Source: a virus
Direction: 5' to 3' (one strand)
Length of the DNA: 20,989 nucleotides
Virus record (IMG/VR): IMGVR_UViG_3300045051_000055
Location: 1-20,989 of that record
Numbering within the stretch: the first letter of the stretch is position 1; each line of letters begins with the position of its first letter. The position numbers were made by a program, and so were the translations under genes. Of this stretch, positions 886 through 20,917 are shown piece by piece. Below the pieces are notes generated by a model, which worked only from the letters and a program-made list of their open reading frames with translations, was not told the DNA's origin and did no database searches.

Positions 886-3777
886 CTATGTTACCAATTC
901 ACCATAGCCTTTAGCCACATAATCAAAAGTGCGACTAACCACAGTTCCACTAGAATTCTTAAACCTAATTGTAAATCCAGTATTGCTCTTTGTGGGAATT
1001 TCATAGTAATCCCCTTGAGATAAATTTTGTGCCATGATACCCAAAGCAGGTGATACTTTAAATGCAGGGCTAAATACCACATCATAACCATTTGATGCTG
1101 TTCCTGATACCAAATCATTATCACCAATTACTCTATCAGGCATATCTATTGAAACTGATAAGGCTTGTAGAATAGGTGTAGATTCTCCACTTGTAGAAGT
1201 CAAAACAGCCTTAAATCTTAAACCTCTAGCTTTATAGTCACCAACAAAGAATCTTCTGTAATCTGTCCATACAGCAGGTGAACTATTAGGGTCATCTTCA
1301 GTTACAGAAATATATAACTGAACATCAGTATCACCATAACTATTAGGATCACCATCAAATAAACCTGTTCTATCATCAAAATTGCCTGTTACATCATCAA
1401 ATAGATTGACATAATCTGCCCTTGATACAGTTAGATTTGAAGTTACCCTACTTGTATAAACATGACCTAAATCTACAATATTAGAGAAGAAATATGTTCC
1501 CTCTGTAGAGATTGTTCCACCACCACCATCAAAATCCCCATCAGCATCATCAAATAAGCCTGTAATATCATCAAAATCAATGGCTGTATCTAATATTAGA
1601 TATCCATCTTCATTAACACTACATTCTATTTTTTGACCTGAAAATGTAGGAGATTCTGTAACTGTTTCAATGAAGTTTAAGCCTTGAATGTCCTGAATAA
1701 CTGCAACAATCTCAGCAGGCACTAAAGATTCATTGCCTAGCTTATCAATTGCCTTAATAAAATAAGTTCCTGTCATAGCAGGTGCAATGGCAAAAACAGC
1801 AGGTCTAGGCACTTTATTAATAAGATCTACAGCATCAGAATAAGTAGCACCTACAGTAGCCCTAGAATGTCTAATCCGATAATGAGATAAATCTAAATCT
1901 CCTACAGCGTTCCATGTCAAATAGGCTTGAGTTCCAACAATATTAATGGAAAACCCTGATACATTCTCAGGTGGTGCAGTTTTACCTACTACTTCATGAT
2001 TTGCAGTTGCATAGGCTGATTTAACACCTAATGTATTAATAGACCTAGCCCTAATATTATAGATTTCACCATCTAATACATTTGGCAATTCAAATCTATT
2101 CCCTGATGCCTGTCCAAGAGTTACCCAAATATCTGATGTAGATACTTTTGCCTCTACTTCATATCTATCTTGAAATGTGCTTGTTCCTGCAATATCTACA
2201 ATTAGTGTAGTAATAATACTTTCTGCAAATACAGTTAATGTATCGGATACAGAAAGACCCGGCGCAGCTACTGTGAATGGATCAGGAAGATTAGTGTTAG
2301 GTGCAAAATCTACTACTGTCTCAGATCCACCTACCCAATCATATACCTGAGATGCTGTCTCTCTAAGAGTTAGATTGACTATAGGTGCATTATTCTCCCC
2401 TGTAGCTGTAAATTCCCAAGTCAATACCTCAAATACTTTGTCATTCCATCCATATCTAGGGAATGTTACTAATACATTATCAGCAGGCTGAATTGCAAAA
2501 GCTGTGAGCTTACATGGCACATTAAAACTGATTTGCTGTCTAGCCTTTTCTAGTTCAATCTTTGAAAGTCTTTGGCAAGTAGCTGATGATGTAGTAAATG
2601 GATATTCCACATCTTTCCAAATGACTTCACCATCTTCTGCTGAATAAAAAGTATTAGTTATAGGTGGAAAGCTAGTAGGCTGATAAAGTGCTGATGGCTC
2701 ACTATATGAGCCTTTGACAGCATTAAATATATCTCTCCTAGACTGAGATGCTTGCATAGTAATAGCCCCTGCAATCATATCTTCTGTGATTGTGACTGTA
2801 GGTGTTCTATAGTGAGCTACTCTTAATGTCCACTTGCCACCTGCATAAGTTAATTTACCACCACAGGCTGTGAGCATTTTCTGTAATACATCTTTTGGCT
2901 GTTCTGCTGAAGAAAAAGCACCATTGATGGTATATCTTTTTTCAGTAGCTCCTGATGCCAATGTCACATCTTGATCACAAATATTAGCTGATTCAATAAA
3001 TGATGCATCATCAAGCTCATCAGCACTAGCACCAAAACCATATCTAGTATCTGTTAAATAGTCTCTGATACAAAGTGCGGCATTTTGAGAATATGCTGTA
3101 GTGCTATTTCTAGGATCAAATACCTTTTTGCCTTGCACTACACAGGTAATATTAGGCAATCCCTGTGGGAAAGTGTCTGAGTTATAGACTAGCTTTGAGG
3201 CTAATATTGAAATACCTTTGAATTGATATGTCAAAGCCTTAGTGCTAGATAAAAAAGCTAATGGAGATTGTGTATCTGTACCTAATAACCAATTAAAAGA
3301 TACTGCATTGGCATCACCTTTATAAGTGCCTACATAAGCATTCCCTGATAAAGATAAAGATAGCTCTGTGTCATTGACATATACCTTACTTACAGCATTG
3401 ATCTCATGACCTGCTATAGCCTGCACTATATACATAGTTTCATTCTTAGCACCCTGAGATTCCATGAATAAGATAGTGCCACCTACCCTAGTCTGACCAT
3501 AGATAACTCTTGCATTACCTACAGGCTCTCTCCGATTGATTAGCTGACCTCTGATAGATTCACCTAGATCATAAGATGGTGGATTGCCTGCTAATAATTG
3601 AGATGCAGTAGCCGCGACTGCTGTAGTAAGTGCCGCCATTGCGACAAATGAGCCAATACCTGCTGATATAGTAGCAGTAGATAAAAGACCTAATGAAGCA
3701 CCACCTGTGTAAACTGCCGCTGCTACTGCTGCGGCTACCACTACTGCTTTAAATACACCACCAAAGCTAAAGCCCAT
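886..3777 (-). CDS. Tail tip / host specificity protein, lambda J-like
   Basis: A 963-residue protein expected at the tip of the siphophage tail, where it helps contact the host. Residues 1-65 are strongly hydrophobic and Ala/Gly-rich. Then comes the conserved beginning of tail tip proteins: REPVGNARVIYGQTRVGGTI (83-102) and a pattern like IVQAIAGHEI (117-126). A PF13550-like central part (roughly 260-480) is followed by fibronectin-III-like segments (about 500-600 and 605-695; the second starts TAPPENVSGFS). Two acidic Phe-Asp repeats follow: FDDITGLFDDADGDFD (735-750) and FDDVTGNFDDRTGLFD (793-808). The C-terminus ends in FDYVAKGYGEL, similar to the closing strand of this family. Start and upstream stop share base 3777 (TAATG), so translation is probably coupled. 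It is the last tail gene before the fibre. Family placement is from motifs, not a search. Confidence 0.85.
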   Translation of the reverse strand: MGFSFGGVFKAVVVAAAVAAAVYTGGASLGLLSTATISAGIGSFVAMAALTTAVAATASQLLAGNPPSYDLGESIRGQLINRREPVGNARVIYGQTRVGGTILFMESQGAKNETMYIVQAIAGHEINAVSKVYVNDTELSLSLSGNAYVGTYKGDANAVSFNWLLGTDTQSPLAFLSSTKALTYQFKGISILASKLVYNSDTFPQGLPNITCVVQGKKVFDPRNSTTAYSQNAALCIRDYLTDTRYGFGASADELDDASFIESANICDQDVTLASGATEKRYTINGAFSSAEQPKDVLQKMLTACGGKLTYAGGKWTLRVAHYRTPTVTITEDMIAGAITMQASQSRRDIFNAVKGSYSEPSALYQPTSFPPITNTFYSAEDGEVIWKDVEYPFTTSSATCQRLSKIELEKARQQISFNVPCKLTAFAIQPADNVLVTFPRYGWNDKVFEVLTWEFTATGENNAPIVNLTLRETASQVYDWVGGSETVVDFAPNTNLPDPFTVAAPGLSVSDTLTVFAESIITTLIVDIAGTSTFQDRYEVEAKVSTSDIWVTLGQASGNRFELPNVLDGEIYNIRARSINTLGVKSAYATANHEVVGKTAPPENVSGFSINIVGTQAYLTWNAVGDLDLSHYRIRHSRATVGATYSDAVDLINKVPRPAVFAIAPAMTGTYFIKAIDKLGNESLVPAEIVAVIQDIQGLNFIETVTESPTFSGQKIECSVNEDGYLILDTAIDFDDITGLFDDADGDFDGGGGTISTEGTYFFSNIVDLGHVYTSRVTSNLTVSRADYVNLFDDVTGNFDDRTGLFDGDPNSYGDTDVQLYISVTEDDPNSSPAVWTDYRRFFVGDYKARGLRFKAVLTSTSGESTPILQALSVSIDMPDRVIGDNDLVSGTASNGYDVVFSPAFKVSPALGIMAQNLSQGDYYEIPTKSNTGFTIRFKNSSGTVVSRTFDYVAKGYGELVT
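1372..1401 (-). repeat. Copy A of an exact 30-bp repeat encoding FDDVTGNFDD
   Basis: Identical over 30 bases to 15670-15699, in the same orientation and codon frame. It encodes residues 793-802 of the tail tip protein. The flanking base differs on each side, so the identity is exactly ten codons. Confidence 0.95.
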
Positions 3778-8280: not shown

Positions 8281-8756
8281 CTTCTCATCAACTTTCTAGC
8301 TTGAGCTTGAATTGCCTTGTCTAATCTATCTCTAATAGCATAGACAGCATCTCTCTTTTTATCCTCAAATGCACCTCTAATAAACCTCTTTGCAGGAATA
8401 GTAGCTGTGCCAAATTCTAAGAATCTCCAATAGTAAGCCTCTCCTTGAGTTTTATAAGTCCTGCCAACTCTGCCAAGCCTTCTATTAGCTCTAGTATCAC
8501 CATAAGTCCCTTTGCCTTTTCTTACACCTACTAGGAATGTTTCCTTTCCTGTGGCAGATTGACTTCTAGATCTATACCTATATAGAGATTTTCTCAGATT
8601 TCCTGAATCCTGTGGTGCTCTATTAATTGCTTCATCTAATATTACCTTTGCACCTGCACTGACAGCAGATCTCAAAGGTCTTTTCTGAATCTCTTGAGGC
8701 AAAAGCTCTAAGGCTCTTTGAAGCTCTTTTAAGCCTTTGACTTCCATGCTAATCAT
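8277..8756 (-). CDS. HK97 gp10-like head-tail joining / tail completion protein
   Basis: A 159-residue basic protein. It starts MISMEVKGLKELQRALELLP, then AVSAGAKVILDEAINRAPQD (32-51) and SGNLRKSLY, and later AYYWRFLEFGTATIPAKRFI: all usual features of the HK97 gp10 family at the head-tail joint. All arginine codons I checked (about 24) are AGA or AGG, a sharp contrast with the capsid gene. The ATG overlaps the preceding TGA (ATGA at 8756-8753); a second in-frame ATG at 8747 (residue 4) could also serve. The C-terminus (QARKLMRR) is strongly basic. Confidence 0.87.
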   Translation of the reverse strand: MISMEVKGLKELQRALELLPQEIQKRPLRSAVSAGAKVILDEAINRAPQDSGNLRKSLYRYRSRSQSATGKETFLVGVRKGKGTYGDTRANRRLGRVGRTYKTQGEAYYWRFLEFGTATIPAKRFIRGAFEDKKRDAVYAIRDRLDKAIQAQARKLMRR

Positions 8757-9064
8757 GGCTTTTTCACCAATATTTCTAAGCCATCAGCCCTGCCAATCTC
8801 TGCAATATAGAGAATGTCATAGACTGTGCCATCATAGAGAATCTGTGCTGTCTCATCAAAATCTTCTCTAAATCTGATTCTCATCCTAAATTGTGCTTCA
8901 GGGACAAATTGAGAGGCAGTGAAATATTCTCTGCCTGAAATAGGAAGCACCTCTGCCCATACTGTAGCTAGAGTATTATAGGCAATAATCTCAGCACCAA
9001 AGTTATCCCTAGTGGCTGTTTTTACCTGAATAGTGATTCTTCTATCTAACTTGCCTGCTTTCAT
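8753..9064 (-). CDS. Head closure / head-tail adaptor protein
   Basis: A 103-residue protein with the typical head-tail adaptor layout: MKAGKLDRRITIQVKTATRD at the start, then YNTLATVWAEVLPISGREYF (29-48), RMRIRFREDFDETAQILYDG (60-79), and a short ending IAEIGRADGLEILV. The family (SPP1 gp16/HK97 gp9-like) seals the connector after DNA packaging. Its good ribosome site AGAGGA lies inside the end of the upstream methyltransferase gene, and its ATG overlaps that gene's TGA. Thus a structural gene is directly coupled to the glycan cassette. Confidence 0.87.
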   Translation of the reverse strand: MKAGKLDRRITIQVKTATRDNFGAEIIAYNTLATVWAEVLPISGREYFTASQFVPEAQFRMRIRFREDFDETAQILYDGTVYDILYIAEIGRADGLEILVKKP

Positions 9065-9648
9065 GCTTTCCTCTTAAATACAAAAGAGCCTATATCTTCT
9101 CTACCTATTTCTGTCTCAATCTCAGAGTATTCAGCACAATTAAAGCCAAAGTTATCCATAAAACCTATCAGTCCTGCCTTAGTAAAATACCAACAATGCT
9201 CATCAGGTCTGAAGTGCTTACTTCTTAAAATGTGCTCTTTGCTATGATATATTGGTGTAGATATAAATACAATTTTCCTGCATTTATTCAATAGATCTGT
9301 AGGATTGTGGATGTGCTCTATAGAATCCCAAAAGCTCATGGCATCTACAGGCTCAGGCTCTTTATATTTACCAATAGCCTTAAGCCACTCTACAGCACTA
9401 GGATTAATATCAAATCCATAGGCATTATCTAGCTCTTTAATAAATGCACCTGAGCCTATTCCAATATCTATTAGAGATTCCCACTGATACCTTTTGACAA
9501 TTTCTAGTCTTGCATCATTGAGCTTTCTTCCAATATCAGTCATCTCCATTTTCTGATACTTATACCAATAAGCCTCATCATAGGGTGAATCTTCTACAGG
9601 GTAGTAGCCTAGCCCATAATTAGGAAGCCACAGTAGCTTTTCTTTCAA
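9061..9648 (-). CDS. Class I SAM-dependent methyltransferase (glycan cassette)
   Basis: A 195-residue Rossmann-type methyltransferase. SAM-binding motif I is LIDIGIGSGAF (59-69), the acidic end of strand 2 is GFDINP (78-83), and WDSIEHIHNP (107-116) matches the post-II region of Methyltransf_23-type enzymes. The opening YDEAYWYKYQKMEMTDIGRK (23-42) is common in sugar-modifying members found beside glycosyltransferases. The likely role is methylation of a sugar or small glycan; the acceptor is unknown. The start is TTG (9648-9646), chosen because AGGAGA lies 5 nt upstream and the first in-frame ATG is more than 30 codons further on. It overlaps the upstream glycosyltransferase gene by 29 nt and ends in an ATGA overlap with the head closure gene. 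Confidence 0.8.
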   Translation of the reverse strand: MKEKLLWLPNYGLGYYPVEDSPYDEAYWYKYQKMEMTDIGRKLNDARLEIVKRYQWESLIDIGIGSGAFIKELDNAYGFDINPSAVEWLKAIGKYKEPEPVDAMSFWDSIEHIHNPTDLLNKCRKIVFISTPIYHSKEHILRSKHFRPDEHCWYFTKAGLIGFMDNFGFNCAEYSEIETEIGREDIGSFVFKRKA

Positions 9649-10477
9649 GAAGATCTCCTATGTTTTTATAAAATTGATCAAAATCTAAGCCTTCTACATT
9701 CATAGGCTTATAAACAGTATCTATTTTTTCAGGGCTTACCCAATTAGTCTGAAAGGATTTGTGCTCAAAGTAATTACTCCAAAGCATCAAAGTAGGTGTA
9801 TTTAGATGCTGAGAAATAATAGTATTACCACCACACCATCCTACAAATGCTGATGCACCTTTAATTAAGCCTAAAAGCTCATCAAGGCTAGTATCACCAC
9901 ACATATTGATGACATTTTCATTCTCTACTAGGTCATTAAATGGCTTATCCCATGAGCTACCTGTCAAAACTAGCTTATATCCTTTAATTCCATTAAGAAG
10001 CTCTTTAATCTTCTTGGCAGGCATATGCCTAATCCATTCTTTAAACATCCCATGATCTGAGAAGTAGAAAATAATATATGGCTCTTTAATAGGAGTATTA
10101 CAGCCATCAGTATTGATCTCATAATCCCAATTAATCTTATATTGAGGCAAGATATTCTCAATCCTATGCCCTACTCTAAGCCCACCATTTACGCACAAAT
10201 AGTGGTCAAATCCCAAAAATCCCTCAACATGGGAATGACCACCATGCATATAAGAAGCATCAAAAATACGCTTGCCCACATCAATCGGTGCATCAAAATA
10301 TCCCCCAAATTTTACAAATGGAATTCTTTTGACAAAATCACCACTTCTAGGTCTTTTATCAAAATTCCAAATATGAATCTCAGGCTTTTCATTAGGGCAG
10401 TGTTGTTTAATGAAATCTTCCATCTTGAGCATTACCCAATGGATGTCTCCGATTCCGGGAATTGTCAATATTTTCAT
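9620..10477 (-). CDS. GT9-like (heptosyltransferase-type) glycosyltransferase
   Basis: A 285-residue protein with GT-B glycosyltransferase features like those of the GT9/ADP-heptose LPS transferase group. The N-terminus MKILTIPGIGDIHWVMLK has the glycine loop GIGDIHW (8-14). The C-terminal half has KGYKLVLTGSSWDKPFNDLV, then CGDTSLDELLGLIKGASAFV (193-212) and GWCGGNTIISQHLNTPTLML (213-232), the nucleotide-sugar-binding layout of the family. It is shorter than typical bacterial heptosyltransferases (about 320-350 residues). It probably transfers a sugar to a virion protein glycan or host surface glycan; which one cannot be read from sequence. Its ATG overlaps the preceding TGA by four bases. 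The first codons use CCC, GGA and ATC more than neighbours, a weak hint of a different source. Confidence 0.72.
   Translation of the reverse strand: MKILTIPGIGDIHWVMLKMEDFIKQHCPNEKPEIHIWNFDKRPRSGDFVKRIPFVKFGGYFDAPIDVGKRIFDASYMHGGHSHVEGFLGFDHYLCVNGGLRVGHRIENILPQYKINWDYEINTDGCNTPIKEPYIIFYFSDHGMFKEWIRHMPAKKIKELLNGIKGYKLVLTGSSWDKPFNDLVENENVINMCGDTSLDELLGLIKGASAFVGWCGGNTIISQHLNTPTLMLWSNYFEHKSFQTNWVSPEKIDTVYKPMNVEGLDFDQFYKNIGDLLERKATVAS
9646..9659 (-). promoter_or_regulatory. Ribosome site fixing a TTG start
   Basis: AGGAGA (9659-9654), 5-nt spacer, TTG (9648-9646). The site lies inside the C-terminal codons of the preceding GT9-like gene. Its strength is the main reason for placing the methyltransferase start here and not at a downstream ATG. 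Confidence 0.75.
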
Positions 10478-11019
10478 CTTCTATAGTCTCTACTTGCTTG
10501 AAAGTGCTCAATTACAGGTGTCATACCACCATAATAATCCCTAGATAAGTCAAAAATACATACATATTCAGGTGGAAGTGTATATATTTTTAGATTATCT
10601 ATGCATGAAATAGCTAAATCTAGATTCTTTTGATCAAATTGCTCAGGATTTTGCTCATTAATCTCAATCCATTTATTCAATAGCTCTATAGTCTTAGGTG
10701 TATTTCTAAAGAATACAGTGCCTGATAATAGCTCTTGACCTTTAAATCTGTGGAAAGCTATATCATACTGATCTAAATCATAGAATAGTAATGGCTCTTG
10801 CCTGACTATAGAATCAGCATCAGTCCACACTACTGCATCTAAATCCTCTATCTGACTAAGAATAAAGTGTGGCTTATAGTGAGTGTTCTTATCCCATGAG
10901 CCTTGATCCTCTATGCCTAATACACAAAATGGCACAGTTAGCTTTTCTAAAGAGGCTATTAGCTTTAAGGCTACATTCCTATATTTAGGTGTGTAATAGG
11001 AGATTATTCTAAAGTGCAT
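10474..11019 (-). CDS. GT-A fold glycosyltransferase with TDAD (DxD) motif
   Basis: A 181-residue protein with the marks of a nucleotide-diphospho-sugar transferase. The start MHFRIISYYTPKYRNVALKL fits the first strand and helix of a GT-A fold. VVWTDADSIV (63-72) holds the metal-binding DxD (D67, D69), and LLSGTVFFRNTPKTIELLNK (about 97-116) matches the acceptor-side region of GT8/capsular-type transferases. It is short, near the minimum for one GT-A domain. The donor sugar is unknown. No strong Shine-Dalgarno precedes the ATG; the 11-nt overlap with the upstream gene suggests coupled translation. Its neighbours are all sugar-related. Confidence 0.75.
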   Translation of the reverse strand: MHFRIISYYTPKYRNVALKLIASLEKLTVPFCVLGIEDQGSWDKNTHYKPHFILSQIEDLDAVVWTDADSIVRQEPLLFYDLDQYDIAFHRFKGQELLSGTVFFRNTPKTIELLNKWIEINEQNPEQFDQKNLDLAISCIDNLKIYTLPPEYVCIFDLSRDYYGGMTPVIEHFQASRDYRR

Positions 11020-11563
11020 AATCTATAGGCATCATAGGAAAGCAATCTATAGCAGAGTGCCTAGTGCAATTAATAACTTCAAAACCTACAGAATCCATAA
11101 TTGGCTTTGCTTTTCTCATATGTTCTACCCATCTACGCATATCAGGAGACTTATCTAGCTCATTAGGATGTCTGCCAAAATAGTGCTGACCTGAATTCAT
11201 ATAGTCAAAGCCAAGCAGTAAAGCTCTTTTATAACCATGCAAATAGGCTAAATTAAGTGCCTGAAATCCTGAATTTCCACCTGAAGCAATAATCTTTTTA
11301 ATTCCAAAGCTAAGAGATGGATCATATTCAATATAGTTGAGCTTATATTTTGCACAGGCATCAGGATTTAAACTCCATTTTTCACCTGCAAAATTAGGCT
11401 TATAGTGATCCCACCACTCTAGGTCACAGGCATATAAGACATCAGCCCAAGGTGCAAGATCATAAGTATTATTTACACAATAAACACTAGCTCTGCCCTT
11501 GCAATAATCTACATCTTCTTTATTTAAGCTCTTGCCACTAGCAATAATGACAGCAGTTTGCAA
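11009..11563 (-). CDS. DUF115/MptE-like, probable glycosyltransferase-like protein
   Basis: A 184-residue Rossmann-like protein starting TAVIIASGKSL (3-13), a glycine-containing nucleotide loop, then VNNTYDLAPWADVLYACDLE (30-49), and IIASGGNSGFQALNLAYLHG (91-110) followed by KRALLLGFDYM. This arrangement is that of the DUF115/MptE-like group, related to Maf flagellin-modifying and sialyltransferase-like folds. In this cassette it is probably a sugar transfer or sugar-nucleotide enzyme. The start is TTG (11563-11561) directly after the connector gene's TAA and in the same frame. Only a weak GGGTG precedes it, so reinitiation or stop readthrough is likely. No closer ATG exists that keeps the glycine loop. 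Confidence 0.68.
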   Translation of the reverse strand: MQTAVIIASGKSLNKEDVDYCKGRASVYCVNNTYDLAPWADVLYACDLEWWDHYKPNFAGEKWSLNPDACAKYKLNYIEYDPSLSFGIKKIIASGGNSGFQALNLAYLHGYKRALLLGFDYMNSGQHYFGRHPNELDKSPDMRRWVEHMRKAKPIMDSVGFEVINCTRHSAIDCFPMMPIDYAL

Positions 11564-12145
11564 TTACACACCCATTTTGAGCCTATAGAATGATAAGAGA
11601 TTAGCTACAGTAGGATTCACATTGTAGGATTTATCTCCACCTGCTTCTCTATTTGCATACATATCACCAATGACTAGCAACATTGCAAATTTTAAAGGCT
11701 TAGGCATAGGATTAGTATCAGGGCTTGAGCCTGATGTATATCCTGCCACAAATCGGATCTTCACATTATTAGCAACACCATAAAGCTCAGGATAAGTGAC
11801 ATTGAAAGCAGGTCTAATCACTACAGGCTCTGCATAAGTGTCCACAATATACTGTGATGAGTTTAAAGTCTGTTCTACACCATTGACATCAAGATATTTG
11901 ATAGATGTCACAGATTGCACAGGTGCAGATAGCACAATCTCATCTTGCCATCCTGTCAAAGCAGTTTCAATAGTCTGTGTTGCAATATATCTATTGAGAT
12001 ACTGCTCAAGATACTGCCTAGATGCAGTAATCATAGCTTCTACTGTCACTTCATCAGCAGGATTAGAATCTAATCTAAGGTATTCAGTAACCTCAGCTAG
12101 TGATAGTGGCTCATAAGTAGGATATGTGATGATTTTATCTGCCAT
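11564..12145 (-). CDS. Head-tail connector, gp6 / phiE125 gp8-like
   Basis: A 193-residue adaptor that binds beneath the portal ring. It has the family's helical opening EPLSLAEVTEYLRLDSNPAD (12-31) and SRQYLEQYLNRYI, a central strand set with APVQSVTSIKYLDVNGVEQT (74-93), and the conserved end VKIRFVAGYTSGSSP then PKPLKFAMLLVIGDMYANRE. The length is typical of the phiE125 gp8 group. It follows the 71-aa gene closely and is separated from the next gene only by its TAA, in the same reading frame. Confidence 0.86.
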   Translation of the reverse strand: MADKIITYPTYEPLSLAEVTEYLRLDSNPADEVTVEAMITASRQYLEQYLNRYIATQTIETALTGWQDEIVLSAPVQSVTSIKYLDVNGVEQTLNSSQYIVDTYAEPVVIRPAFNVTYPELYGVANNVKIRFVAGYTSGSSPDTNPMPKPLKFAMLLVIGDMYANREAGGDKSYNVNPTVANLLSFYRLKMGV

Positions 12146-12423: not shown

Positions 12424-13566
12424 TTAAGCTAACAAATCACCATAGTAAACAGAAGCAGGGCGATAGATTGCCAATGCCAAGCGAGCCTCAGCACGCACTG
12501 TGATCAAATTCTTTTGGAAGTTTGTATCATCAGATTCTGACATTTCAACTGTTACACCTTGGCGATTCCACACTTGGTAAGCAATATCCATAGCACCTAC
12601 CATGAATTTACCTGCTGTCATAGTGTTAGTAGCAACTACAGGCAAGCCCCACAATGTAGGAGCAAGGCTCTGTGGTGTGCCAAATACATACTCACCTGTG
12701 GTAGTCTTTGTGCGCTCAATTGCACCCCAATCAGCAGGGTTCAAAATGATAGCTGTAGGAGCATAATCAGCACCAATCACAGAGTAGATAGCTTTGTTGA
12801 TGCTATCAATGCGTGTGTCACCTGAAGCAGGTGTAAACGCTGTGAAGTTACCTGATTTAGTCATACCACCAATATTTTGACCTGAGCCATTGCCATTCAA
12901 CAATTGCTGATCAATGCGAAGATCTACACCATAACGCAAGCGAGTATCTACATAAGAGGCTAATGCAGGAGCATCATCCATTACTTGCTTAGATAGCTTG
13001 AGCCAATGAGCAATAGTCTTTACAGGAGCTTCAGCCAATTCAAAAGTCAAAGAGGCTTCAGGTTTTGTAGCACCTTCAGCAGTTTCTGCTGCGCCATTTG
13101 TAAATGCCAATTCACGGGTATATTCAACCATATTGCTGTTAGTTACACCCTGTGGCAATACATCACGCACACGCAAGCTACGGAAAGCACCGGGGATGAT
13201 ACCTACTTGTCGCTGTGGAGCAACAATGGTGTCACTGTTAGATGCAGGTGAGCCTGATTGACCTGTGATTGTGTTCTTCAACTCAACACGCGCTTTAGAA
13301 GTCTGACCTGTTAAGAATGACTTGAATTCATTTGATTCAACAAATGACTGACCTAATGTCTTAGGCATTTCAATACCACGCTTAACATTTTCAGCTTGCT
13401 TCTGCTCAATTTCAAGCAGGCGCTCACCCATAGACTTCAACTCTTGAGCAACTTTTTCAGCTTTTTCAACTGCTGATTTGCTCTCTGTGCCTGCTGATTG
13501 CAATAGGCTGTCAATCTCTTTTTGCTTTGATTCCAAAGCTACTAATACTTGATTTACATCACTCAT
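12424..13566 (-). CDS. Major capsid protein, HK97 fold
   Basis: A 380-residue HK97-family capsid. Residues 1 to about 95 are Lys/Glu/Gln-rich and helical (SKQKEIDSLLQSAGTESKSA, then KAEKVAQELKSMGERLLEIE), as expected of the delta scaffold domain removed by the prohead protease. The mature part has the usual order: PQRQVGIIPGAFRSLRVRDV, then VEYTRELAF, then AHWLKLSKQVMDDAPALASY, then LRIDQQLLNGNGSGQNIGGM, then PTAIILNPADWGAIERTKTT and LWGLPVVATNTM. No separate scaffold gene is seen, consistent with a fused delta domain. The ribosome site AAAGGAT is good. All 17 arginine codons are CGN (mostly CGC/CGT) whereas neighbours favour AGA/AGG. It lies three bases after the protease gene and is followed by a terminator. 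Confidence 0.95.
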   Translation of the reverse strand: MSDVNQVLVALESKQKEIDSLLQSAGTESKSAVEKAEKVAQELKSMGERLLEIEQKQAENVKRGIEMPKTLGQSFVESNEFKSFLTGQTSKARVELKNTITGQSGSPASNSDTIVAPQRQVGIIPGAFRSLRVRDVLPQGVTNSNMVEYTRELAFTNGAAETAEGATKPEASLTFELAEAPVKTIAHWLKLSKQVMDDAPALASYVDTRLRYGVDLRIDQQLLNGNGSGQNIGGMTKSGNFTAFTPASGDTRIDSINKAIYSVIGADYAPTAIILNPADWGAIERTKTTTGEYVFGTPQSLAPTLWGLPVVATNTMTAGKFMVGAMDIAYQVWNRQGVTVEMSESDDTNFQKNLITVRAEARLALAIYRPASVYYGDLLA

Positions 13567-14755: not shown

Positions 14756-14784
14756 ATAATAATATAAATCTGTTAAGCCGCCAA
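14756..14784 (-). promoter_or_regulatory. Candidate sigma70-type promoter before protease-capsid genes
   Basis: The minus strand has TTGGCG (14784-14779), a 17-nt spacer, and TATTAT (14761-14756): 4/6 and 5/6 matches to the -35 and -10 consensus. It spans the end of the upstream gene and the AT-rich 42-nt gap before the protease. A start near 14749 would leave a short leader with AGGAG. AT-rich DNA gives such matches by chance, so it is tentative. Confidence 0.35.
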
Positions 14785-15780
14785 TAATAAAATAATTTCT
14801 TCTTCACTAATTCCTAGATTAGCTGAAGCCTCAATATATTCAGGCTGAGTATTAGCATTTGCAGATTGAATTCTAGCTGTGCCATTAATGACTGTTAAGC
14901 CTATAGAGTTTATTCTTCCATAATAGATATTTGCTCTTAATGGTCTTAAAGATACTGATGCATCTTTTATGCCTACAGGGATGACCATATACTCACCACC
15001 ATGAGTATCATCACCTGATTCTGTGCCTGATGCTGTTATAGATCCTACTGATGCTGTGATATTGATGCCATTAATCTGAGCAATTGCACTGCCTGTGGCT
15101 GATGCTGTGACATTCCCCGCTGTAATCCCTAATTGAATACCTGAAATCAGATTTGTATCATCAGTTTTTGCAGATATTGCACTTATTTCACTTAATAATT
15201 GCTGTCCTGTGACAGAAATTGAGCTATTTTGAGTGCCATTTGCTGTAATACTTTGTGCTGATGAGACTAATTCCTGACCTGATACAGCTACAGAATCACC
15301 TACATTAGCAGGCACAATGCCCTGAGATATGCTTAATTCTCTGCCATTTAGAGCAATATTTGCATTAGAAATGCCTATTGCAGTGACATTTTCTGCTGTT
15401 ATTTGTGCAGAAATTCCATCTAAAAGCACAGAATCTGTCACATTTGCACTGATTTCCTGTGCAAAAGCTGTTATTTCTATGCCATTTAAGCTGATTTGAT
15501 CAATTACTGTGACATTTACACTAGAAATTGCACTATCTAGCTGTAATCCTGTAATTGCTACTGAATCTGAGACTGATTCAGCTATATTTCCTGCTGTGGC
15601 TGTAACCTGTATGCCATTGACAGTGATTGATGCAGAATTTACACCACCATCATCAAAAAGATTGAGTGCATCATCAAAATTGCCTGTTACATCATCAAAA
15701 ATGCGATTAGGCAATTCATAACTATCAAAATCACCACTTTGATAGTCAAAATCACCTAATGCACTATCAAAATTAGGCAT
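14773..15780 (-). CDS. Repeat-built structural protein (nine 22/24-residue repeats)
   Basis: A 335-residue protein I cannot assign to a named family. Residues 4-45 are acidic Phe-Asp repeats (FDSALGD, FDYQSGD, FDDVTGN, FDDALNL, FDDGG). Residues about 50-255 hold nine repeats whose key Gly falls at 56, 78, 100, 122, 146, 168, 192, 214 and 238: spacing only 22 or 24. The unit is roughly [IV]x[VLI][NTS]G[IQ]x[LI]x[ST] then [IV]xA and xDS. This points to a beta-strand repeat such as a solenoid or stacked hairpin. Residues 262-305 (EYMVIPVGIKDASVSLRPLR) form a separate C-terminal domain. Ser/Thr are abundant, so it could be a glycan acceptor (inference). It lies between portal and protease, an accessory position; a head fibre or decoration is possible. 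The ATG overlaps the previous TAA by one base. Confidence 0.72.
   Translation of the reverse strand: MPNFDSALGDFDYQSGDFDSYELPNRIFDDVTGNFDDALNLFDDGGVNSASITVNGIQVTATAGNIAESVSDSVAITGLQLDSAISSVNVTVIDQISLNGIEITAFAQEISANVTDSVLLDGISAQITAENVTAIGISNANIALNGRELSISQGIVPANVGDSVAVSGQELVSSAQSITANGTQNSSISVTGQQLLSEISAISAKTDDTNLISGIQLGITAGNVTASATGSAIAQINGINITASVGSITASGTESGDDTHGGEYMVIPVGIKDASVSLRPLRANIYYGRINSIGLTVINGTARIQSANANTQPEYIEASANLGISEEEIILLLAA
15016..15633 (-). repeat. Protein-level tandem repeat region, nine units of 22 or 24 codons
   Basis: Codons 50 to 255 of the 335-aa gene. The repeat is clear in protein, with the NG/TG/SG/DG step every 66 or 72 bases, but DNA copies have diverged, so it is old or under selection at protein level. 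Confidence 0.8.
15670..15699 (-). repeat. Copy B of the exact 30-bp repeat encoding FDDVTGNFDD
   Basis: Identical to 1372-1401, same orientation and frame. It encodes residues 28-37 of the 335-aa repeat protein. The two copies are about 14.3 kb apart, in genes for a portal-proximal protein and the tail tip protein. Confidence 0.95.
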
Positions 15781-19771: not shown

Positions 19772-20917
19772 TCATGCCTCTAGTAATTCAGCCTTTTTGC
19801 CTGTGAAATCTTCCCATCTTTTTACTATTACATCACAGTATTTAGGATCTAGCTCCATCAAAAATGCTTTTCTATCTAACTTTTCACATGAAATAAGTGT
19901 AGTTCCACTTCCACCAAACAAATCTAATACATAACCCTTCTGTGGCACTTTCAAATATTCAATAGAAAAATTAATAATCTCTACAGGTTTTTGTGTAGGG
20001 TGCACACTTCCTTTTAAAGCACCTCTGTTTACAGTTTTACTTCTCAAAGGTTTATCTTCTGTAGTCCAAGCCAACTCACCATCTGACATGGTTAGCCCAT
20101 CTTGACCTTTATTCCAATATAGCCATCCTCTAGTAGCAGGCAATAAATCTGCAAAGTAATTGCCACCCCAAATAACTGATGGCACATTTAAAGATACTAT
20201 GTAATTGAATATTCCTGCATCAGGTCTTTCAGAATCCCATCCTCTAAATTCATGATGCTTTCTATTGTGCTTAGGGTTTTTACTAATGCTTTTCTTTTGA
20301 CCATCAATGCCTATGCCATAAGGTGGATCTGTGATTACAGCATTTAACATTGCTCGATTAAGCAATTTATCAATTGCATTAATATCACCTGAATCACCAC
20401 ACATAAGCCTATGATTTCCTAATACATATATATCGCCTAACTTTGTCTTAGGTTCTTCAGGCACTTCAGGCACAGCATCATCTTCTGTATTTCCATCTAA
20501 TACTTCAGGTTTTAATAATGCAGATAGCTCATCATCACTAAATCCTGTAAGCCCTAAATCAAAATCAAATTCCTTTAATTCTGCAAGCTCTAGGGCTAAT
20601 ATAGAATTATCCCATCCTGCATTAAGTGCCAATTTATTATCAGCAATCACATAGGCTTTTTTCTTTGCCTCTGACCAATCTTTTGCAATCATCACAGGCA
20701 CTTCTTTGATGCCTAACTTCTTACCTGCCATGACCCTGCCATGACCTGCAATAATTTGACCTGTCTCATCAATCAAAACAGGTGTAGTCCAACCCCATTC
20801 TTTTATTGAGCTTGCAATTTGTAATACTTGCTCATCAGAGTGGGTTCTTGAATTTCTTGCATAAGGGATTAATTTTTCAATATCCCATTTTTCAACTTTA
20901 TCAGCAGGATTTGTCAT
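19772..20917 (-). CDS. ParB-like domain fused to N6-adenine DNA methyltransferase
   Basis: A 381-residue two-domain protein. Residues 8 to about 115 are a ParB/sulfiredoxin-like domain: EKLIPYARNSRTHSDEQVLQ (14-33), then GHGR (58-61) and YVIADNKLALNAGWD (89-103). The second domain is a DNA methyltransferase with catalytic TDPPYGIG (196-203) before SAM-binding LDLFGGSGTT (331-340), the beta-class order. DPPY rather than SPPY points to adenine-N6, and HPTQKP (306-311) is typical of this group. In many phages this gene lies next to the terminase; it may protect phage DNA from restriction or mark packaging sites. The target site cannot be read. The ATG overlaps the previous TGA by four bases; the ribosome site is weak. 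Confidence 0.9.
   Translation of the reverse strand: MTNPADKVEKWDIEKLIPYARNSRTHSDEQVLQIASSIKEWGWTTPVLIDETGQIIAGHGRVMAGKKLGIKEVPVMIAKDWSEAKKKAYVIADNKLALNAGWDNSILALELAELKEFDFDLGLTGFSDDELSALLKPEVLDGNTEDDAVPEVPEEPKTKLGDIYVLGNHRLMCGDSGDINAIDKLLNRAMLNAVITDPPYGIGIDGQKKSISKNPKHNRKHHEFRGWDSERPDAGIFNYIVSLNVPSVIWGGNYFADLLPATRGWLYWNKGQDGLTMSDGELAWTTEDKPLRSKTVNRGALKGSVHPTQKPVEIINFSIEYLKVPQKGYVLDLFGGSGTTLISCEKLDRKAFLMELDPKYCDVIVKRWEDFTGKKAELLEA

Follow-up and report, generated by a model that had tools for sequence, protein, structure and literature searches.

A four-gene enzyme cassette between the connector and head closure genes

The window analysed here is the whole 20,989-base virus record IMGVR_UViG_3300045051_000055, in whose numbering all coordinates are given, and its minus strand carries the late genes of a siphovirus with the HK97 fold. 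These run in the order DNA methyltransferase, terminase, portal, protease, capsid, small gene, connector, four enzyme genes, head closure, gp10-like, tail terminator, tail tube, chaperone, tape measure and tail genes. The four co-oriented enzyme genes (9061-11563) form the cassette that is the subject of this study, and the first of them, encoding a DUF115/GT42-like protein, is the anchor of a variable island of glycan enzymes that resides in the head-neck module of many Gram-negative phages and whose partner genes swap. The cassette and its two flanking genes comprise:

11564..12145, minus strand: gp6-like head-tail connector, flanking the cassette upstream (Phage_connect_1 2.8e-7; phrog_442, PHROG head-tail adaptor, 2.9e-22)
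11009..11563, minus strand: GT42/DUF115-like transferase (PmgO / D3 Orf7 family), the anchor gene of the island (184 aa, TTG start; phrog_4603 'alpha-2,3-sialyltransferase' 7e-39)
10474..11019, minus strand: GT-A type glycosyltransferase with a TDAD (DxD-like) motif (181 aa, ATG start; Nucleotid_trans 2.4e-6)
9620..10477, minus strand: GT9-like (heptosyltransferase-like) GT-B transferase (285 aa, ATG start; Glyco_transf_9 2e-5)
9061..9648, minus strand: S-adenosylmethionine-dependent methyltransferase (195 aa, TTG start; Methyltransf_23 1.8e-12; phrog_6564 7e-67)
8753..9064, minus strand: head closure / head completion protein, flanking the cassette downstream (Phage_HCP 1.2e-25; phrog_25 3e-24)

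Gene calls and family searches confirmed the four genes, their families and their place between connector and head closure as given in an initial annotation of this DNA, and the junctions described there are present in the sequence. The connector stop codon TAA (11566-11564) runs straight into the TTG (11563-11561) of the DUF115 gene on the minus strand, and ATGA (9064-9061) is common to the methyltransferase stop and the head closure start, such that the spacings from connector through head closure are 0, -11, -4, -29 and -4 bp. Relatives of the DUF115 gene have an ATG start at the same aligned residue, which supports the TTG start assigned here.

The cassette is conserved and inserts without breaking the operon

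The order connector, DUF115, GT-A, GT9, methyltransferase, head closure is identical in at least 14 related viral contigs compared in detail, with every junction overlapping, which answers in the affirmative the question raised by the initial annotation of whether the set is conserved at this place in related phages. In most cassette carriers the connector and DUF115 genes, like the methyltransferase and head closure genes, share four bases. The median pairwise ratios of nonsynonymous to synonymous substitution rates (dN/dS) within the 14-contig group are 0.15 for the DUF115 gene, 0.11 for the GT-A gene, 0.07 for the GT9 gene and 0.10 for the methyltransferase gene; such low values, on a par with those of the capsid (0.13) and of the connector and head closure (0.09), suggest that the four genes are kept by purifying selection and are presumably functional.

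The connector and head closure genes had been assumed to be adjacent as a rule, and this holds in the cassette-free relatives L128, L131, L149, L153 and L163, where the two genes are directly adjacent or share about 4 bases; L173 is likewise without cargo. Insertion thus leaves the genes of the operon coupled.

The DUF115 gene anchors a swap site in the head-neck module

The capsid gene served as the anchor used to find relatives of the window phage:

12424..13566, minus strand: HK97-fold major capsid protein (Phage_capsid 4.4e-50)

In this capsid-anchored survey, which was not selected for the cassette and comprises 29 non-redundant loci spanning capsid to gp10, a DUF115 gene lies between capsid and gp10 at 19/29 loci, with no cargo at 7/29 and other cargo at 3/29, and it is present at all eight loci of the highest capsid-identity class. 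The DUF115 relatives recovered by pattern scans number at least 588 in viral contigs and, in a second scan, 35 in bacterial genomes, mostly those of Alpha-, Beta- and Gammaproteobacteria and Omnitrophota. The broad DUF115 alignment yielded no conserved stretch for a genome scan, and the bacterial-genome scan was built on a closer subset of sequences. A comparison of Gram-negative with Gram-positive hosts in whole genomes, beyond the centre genomes, is too sparse to decide (3/298 in the phylum of an Ensifer genome vs 1/295, a 972-residue frame, in that of an actinobacterial metagenome-assembled genome). A labelled head, neck or tail gene is found within three genes of the DUF115 gene at 59/73 viral and 30/35 bacterial-genome loci, counts in which a few contigs appear twice; several of the remaining loci apparently carry capsid genes that are too distant to be caught by the labels used.

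The partners of the anchor are exchanged between close relatives. L116 and L127, which resemble the window in capsid (75-83%), connector (67-68%) and tail tube (82%), retain the DUF115 gene (54%), while two different genes replace those for the GT-A, GT9 and methyltransferase proteins; one of the replacements is a relative of P1 PmgQ (phrog_1962 'glycosyltransferase'). At other loci the partners include FkbM and other methyltransferases as well as GT9, GT8, GT2, GT4 and GT-D enzymes, and at eleven loci the DUF115 gene stands solo at the site. At L031 and L032, by comparison, a GT9-methyltransferase pair adjoins a probable tape-measure gene and no DUF115 gene was recognised, indicating that the pair can move without the anchor.

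Insertion points were observed between capsid and connector, between connector and closure, between closure and gp10, after the tail genes and before TerS. Such a spread would suit an explanation in which the enzymes glycosylate a non-virion target (a host defence or surface protein) and the head position is a convenient late slot for accessory genes. We regard this as quite improbable, since one anchor family recurs with unrelated partners in the head-neck module beyond what a generic slot would lead one to expect, and no convincing match to a defence-system protein was found. A single weak match (0.0064) between the methyltransferase and DpdD was taken as chance, and a defence-system origin of the cassette was rejected.

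Fold assignments of the four enzymes

DUF115 is used here as a label only: the window protein scores below the Pfam gathering cut-off for the MptE/DUF115-like family (PF01973; 15.9 vs 34.6 bits), and so does its CcrColossus relative (31.8). A profile of the DUF115 proteins matches Cst-II sialyltransferases in the Protein Data Bank (2.1e-5 to 1.2e-4), and a Foldseek search with its AlphaFold model (predicted local distance difference test score, pLDDT, 94.5) returned Cst-II as the best and only strong structural match (4.9e-4, probability 1.00). Three Cst-II chains lead the list with template-modelling (TM) scores of 0.61-0.63 on the query, followed by the next match at 0.34. The DUF115 alignment has conserved polar residues at D47, D120, N165, H127 and H132, the two histidines being nearly invariant, and the profile alignment to Cst-II ends before the catalytic region of the latter. 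Cst-II builds lipooligosaccharide.

The GT-A protein, whose TDAD motif lies within VVWTDADSIV, scores 28.1 bits against Nucleotid_trans (cut-off 22) and has just two distant relatives among isolated phages. The GT9 protein is likewise above the cut-off for its family (Glyco_transf_9, 24.5 bits, cut-off 22); a tblastn search of isolated phage records gave no match, and the same query of viral contigs recovered 19 relatives at 60-65% identity. Its model is of moderate confidence (pLDDT 61), with best Foldseek matches to WaaC, WaaF and TibC at 1.6e-6 to 1e-5. The first two build the inner core of lipopolysaccharide (LPS) or lipooligosaccharide. TibC is a heptosyltransferase that acts on proteins (PMC4358343). 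The fold of the GT9 protein is equally close to LPS heptosyltransferases and to a protein heptosyltransferase. TibC and the autotransporter heptosyltransferases share the GT9-related GT-B fold with the window protein, but TibC is a larger, dodecameric iron protein that targets autotransporter adhesins. Against the NCBIfam equivalogs for LPS heptosyltransferases (II, III, RfaQ and RfaF), the GT9 protein is below every cut-off (20.6 vs 134.6; 17.9 vs 170.2; 16.4 vs 467; 16 vs 569). The methyltransferase is 38-47% identical to D3 Orf13, PAJU2 gp12 and proteins of Psp6, Eowyn and Mulvp2.

Related islands in well-known phages

The initial annotation had regarded the four-gene set as unfamiliar at this place, a view that the comparisons do not support. 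DUF115 and methyltransferase families occur with a transferase-like gene in the head-neck module of D3, PP9W2, PAJU2 and Psp6, the jumbo phage Eowyn has a trio of such genes in a different genomic context, and all four kinds of gene are found in the tail module of CcrColossus. In D3, PP9W2 and PAJU2 (D3 orf7 / orf12-orf13), the DUF115 (31-36% identical) and methyltransferase (about 42%) genes belong to the head-neck module of a siphovirus with the HK97 fold, and a glycosyltransferase-like gene sits just upstream of the methyltransferase gene and overlaps it, as in the window. The arrangement is nonetheless distinct, in that the DUF115 gene of D3 lies ahead of the connector, with the other pair coming after head closure. 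The gene that precedes the methyltransferase gene belongs to phrog_6804, which aligns weakly to the window GT9 protein, and no GT-A gene was seen in the D3-type islands. D3 Orf12 was considered as a clear homologue of the window GT9 protein, which the hhalign comparison did not establish (probability 29%, E 6e-4).

In the Caulobacter phage CcrColossus, gp126-gp131 bring together an alpha-2,3-sialyltransferase-like protein (phrog_4603), a nucleotide-diphospho-sugar transferase, a methyltransferase and a family 9 glycosyltransferase, and the first gene of the island shares one base with a gene for a tail protein. CcrColossus differs from the window phage in being a jumbo phage whose island occupies the tail module ahead of the endolysin and holin genes, with extra genes interspersed and distant sequences that belong in part to other PHROGs.

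The P1 genes pmgN-pmgO-pmgP-ppp-pmgQ (L290; P1 74500-87500) and P7 hdmA-D (L009) are related through PmgO/HdmB, which are DUF115 relatives (30%), and through PmgQ, a 27% relative of the glycosyltransferase that stands in for the window partners in L127. The profile used here also places the P7 pmgP copy (L009:4504-5130) among the distant relatives of DUF115. In contrast to the window, the P1/P7 genes belong to a myovirus and form a separate lytic operon that has an operator for the C1 repressor and, upstream at pmgL, a late promoter; they include a protein phosphatase and no recognised methyltransferase, and are labelled 'morphogenetic'. This label ('putative morphogenetic function' in P1), together with the position of the genes and the eleven solo loci, could be taken to mean that the DUF115 protein has an enzyme fold that is no longer active and serves as an assembly factor, the island being a morphogenesis module. 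We give this idea very little credence: P1 pmgO, pmgP and pmgQ are reported to be dispensable for growth (PMC10695390), as expected of decoration, the five polar residues are conserved, and the identifiable partners are mostly sugar or methyl transferases.

A precedent is provided by the mycobacteriophages Che8, Corndog and Myrna, where, according to work cited in PMC12363180 and PMC12619734, phage-encoded glycosyltransferases modify capsid and tail-tube proteins; these phages have mycobacterial hosts. No paper describing the island was found in the literature library searched. The broad group was already present, without an assigned function, in D3, PAJU2, PP9W2, Psp6, P1/P7 and CcrColossus, and what is new is the recognition of the swap site, of its GT42-like anchor and of the link to P1 and D3.

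A virion substrate is favoured over host lipopolysaccharide

Upstream of the cassette, a terminator-like element follows the capsid gene:

12402-12381, minus strand: intrinsic-terminator-like hairpin 3' of the capsid gene, preceding small gene p71, connector and cassette (9-pair stem, 6 G-C pairs, then T6; RNA fold -20.1 kcal/mol, z -1.8)

The hairpin would make the cassette part of the transcript segment downstream of it and, being strong, suggests that the cassette is probably expressed below the level of the capsid. No promoter enrichment was detected in the cassette region (25 found vs 21.9 expected). Our preferred reading, held with moderate confidence, is that the four genes form a glycan-assembly cassette, expressed late and acting in the cytosol, whose most likely targets are virion proteins of the capsid, neck or tail.

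The main rival explanation is modification of the host envelope, whereby the enzymes would alter the LPS inner core or outer sugars late in infection or lysogeny, thereby excluding other phages or preventing progeny from binding to debris. The resemblance of the GT9 model to WaaC/WaaF and the activity of Cst-II on lipooligosaccharide are compatible with such a role, as is the presence of LPS in the isolated hosts among the listed matches; indeed, because both folds include LPS-building enzymes and, with TibC, a protein-modifying one, the fold alone cannot separate a protein from an LPS target. We nevertheless consider LPS modification unlikely. The cassette joins the neighbouring virion genes without a break and shows no promoter enrichment, and little time would remain for surface remodelling after late synthesis. 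Moreover, the GT9 protein is far under the curated LPS heptosyltransferase cut-offs (20.6 vs 134.6 at best). None of the four proteins has a clear membrane segment (maximum 19-residue hydropathy 0.57-1.61), nor is there among them a membrane-embedded partner typical of O-antigen or serotype conversion modules (flippase, polymerase or acyltransferase). Such modules occupy a separate locus outside the virion operon, unlike the window cassette between connector and head closure: D3 keeps its own O-antigen conversion genes (iap, O-antigen acetylase and wzy(beta)) some 12-15 kb from its cassette, a separation that speaks against LPS as the target. Thus, the preference of the initial annotation for a virion over an LPS target gains in likelihood and its virion-glycosylation interpretation is plausible, with the substrate being something that we infer.

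A second alternative, in which the transferases sugar-modify bases of the phage genome, appears very improbable. Some phage glycosyltransferases do act on DNA (PMC12619734) and the window encodes a ParB/N6_N4 DNA methyltransferase (19772-20917), but no base-modifying synthesis genes were seen in the 21 kb window, the families are of the GT42, GT9 and GT-A type, and the genes lie in the head operon rather than among replication genes.

Several observations weigh against decoration of the virion. The glycan, its donors and its substrate are inferred from genes and folds, as are the order of steps and the benefit to the phage, and the view is limited to 21 kb of the phage. Both identified transferase folds include LPS builders, and the hosts named among the listed isolated-phage matches, all Gram-negative or cyanobacterial (Synechococcus phages), would also be compatible with an LPS substrate. 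In addition, the DUF115 genes of PAJU2 and Eowyn carry 'structural protein' labels without stated evidence, and in P1, phiNP and XacN1 the genes sit away from the neck, making the neck location a tendency rather than a rule.

Proposed assembly of the glycan

For decoration of the virion, we suggest that the GT42-like protein, which is the constant gene and sometimes alone at the site, probably starts the glycan on a virion protein by transferring a sugar activated with cytidine monophosphate (CMP), possibly host CMP-3-deoxy-D-manno-octulosonic acid (CMP-Kdo) or a sialic-acid-like sugar. Extension of the glycan would then fall to the GT-A and GT9 proteins, the latter perhaps using adenosine diphosphate (ADP)-heptose, and the methyltransferase may cap or otherwise modify it, the capping role being one that the initial annotation had already envisaged. 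The known donors of both fold families, CMP-sugars and ADP-heptose, overlap with LPS precursors supplied by Gram-negative hosts, which would explain why the cassette has no donor genes and why the hosts named among the listed matches have Gram-negative envelopes. The anchor stays in the head-neck module and partner enzymes are exchanged among related phages, a pattern that diversifying pressure on the outer glycan (from antibodies, defence, or sticking to debris or mucus) would be expected to produce.

More tentatively, these islands could constitute a widespread, unnamed class of virion-glycosylation islands in Gram-negative phages, with a GT42-like head-neck anchor, exchangeable partners and sugars drawn from host LPS precursors (CMP-Kdo, ADP-heptose), to which P1 PmgO/PmgQ and D3 Orf7/Orf12/Orf13 would belong. 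The virion reading gives a predicted function to a family that is found in hundreds of viral contigs and that goes under the labels 'putative morphogenetic' (P1) and 'hypothetical' (D3). Glycans on virions reportedly influence how antibodies recognise phages, and they may affect adsorption and stability. The proposal bears on phage therapy and on why P1-like phages keep dispensable genes in lytic regions, and makes a poorly understood gene group testable with existing laboratory phages such as P1 and D3.

Other features of the window

The DNA methyltransferase gene (19772-20917, minus strand) encodes a fusion of a ParB_N domain with an N6/N4 DNA methyltransferase and adjoins the small terminase gene. 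Upstream of the protease lies a gene for a Ser/Thr-rich repeat protein (14773-15780, minus strand; 335 aa) without a Pfam match, which is a candidate glycan acceptor and is absent from some carriers of the four-gene set (L013, L110). The motif FDDVTGNFDD is common to this repeat protein and the large tail protein (886-3777, minus strand), possibly reflecting a common origin or an interaction.

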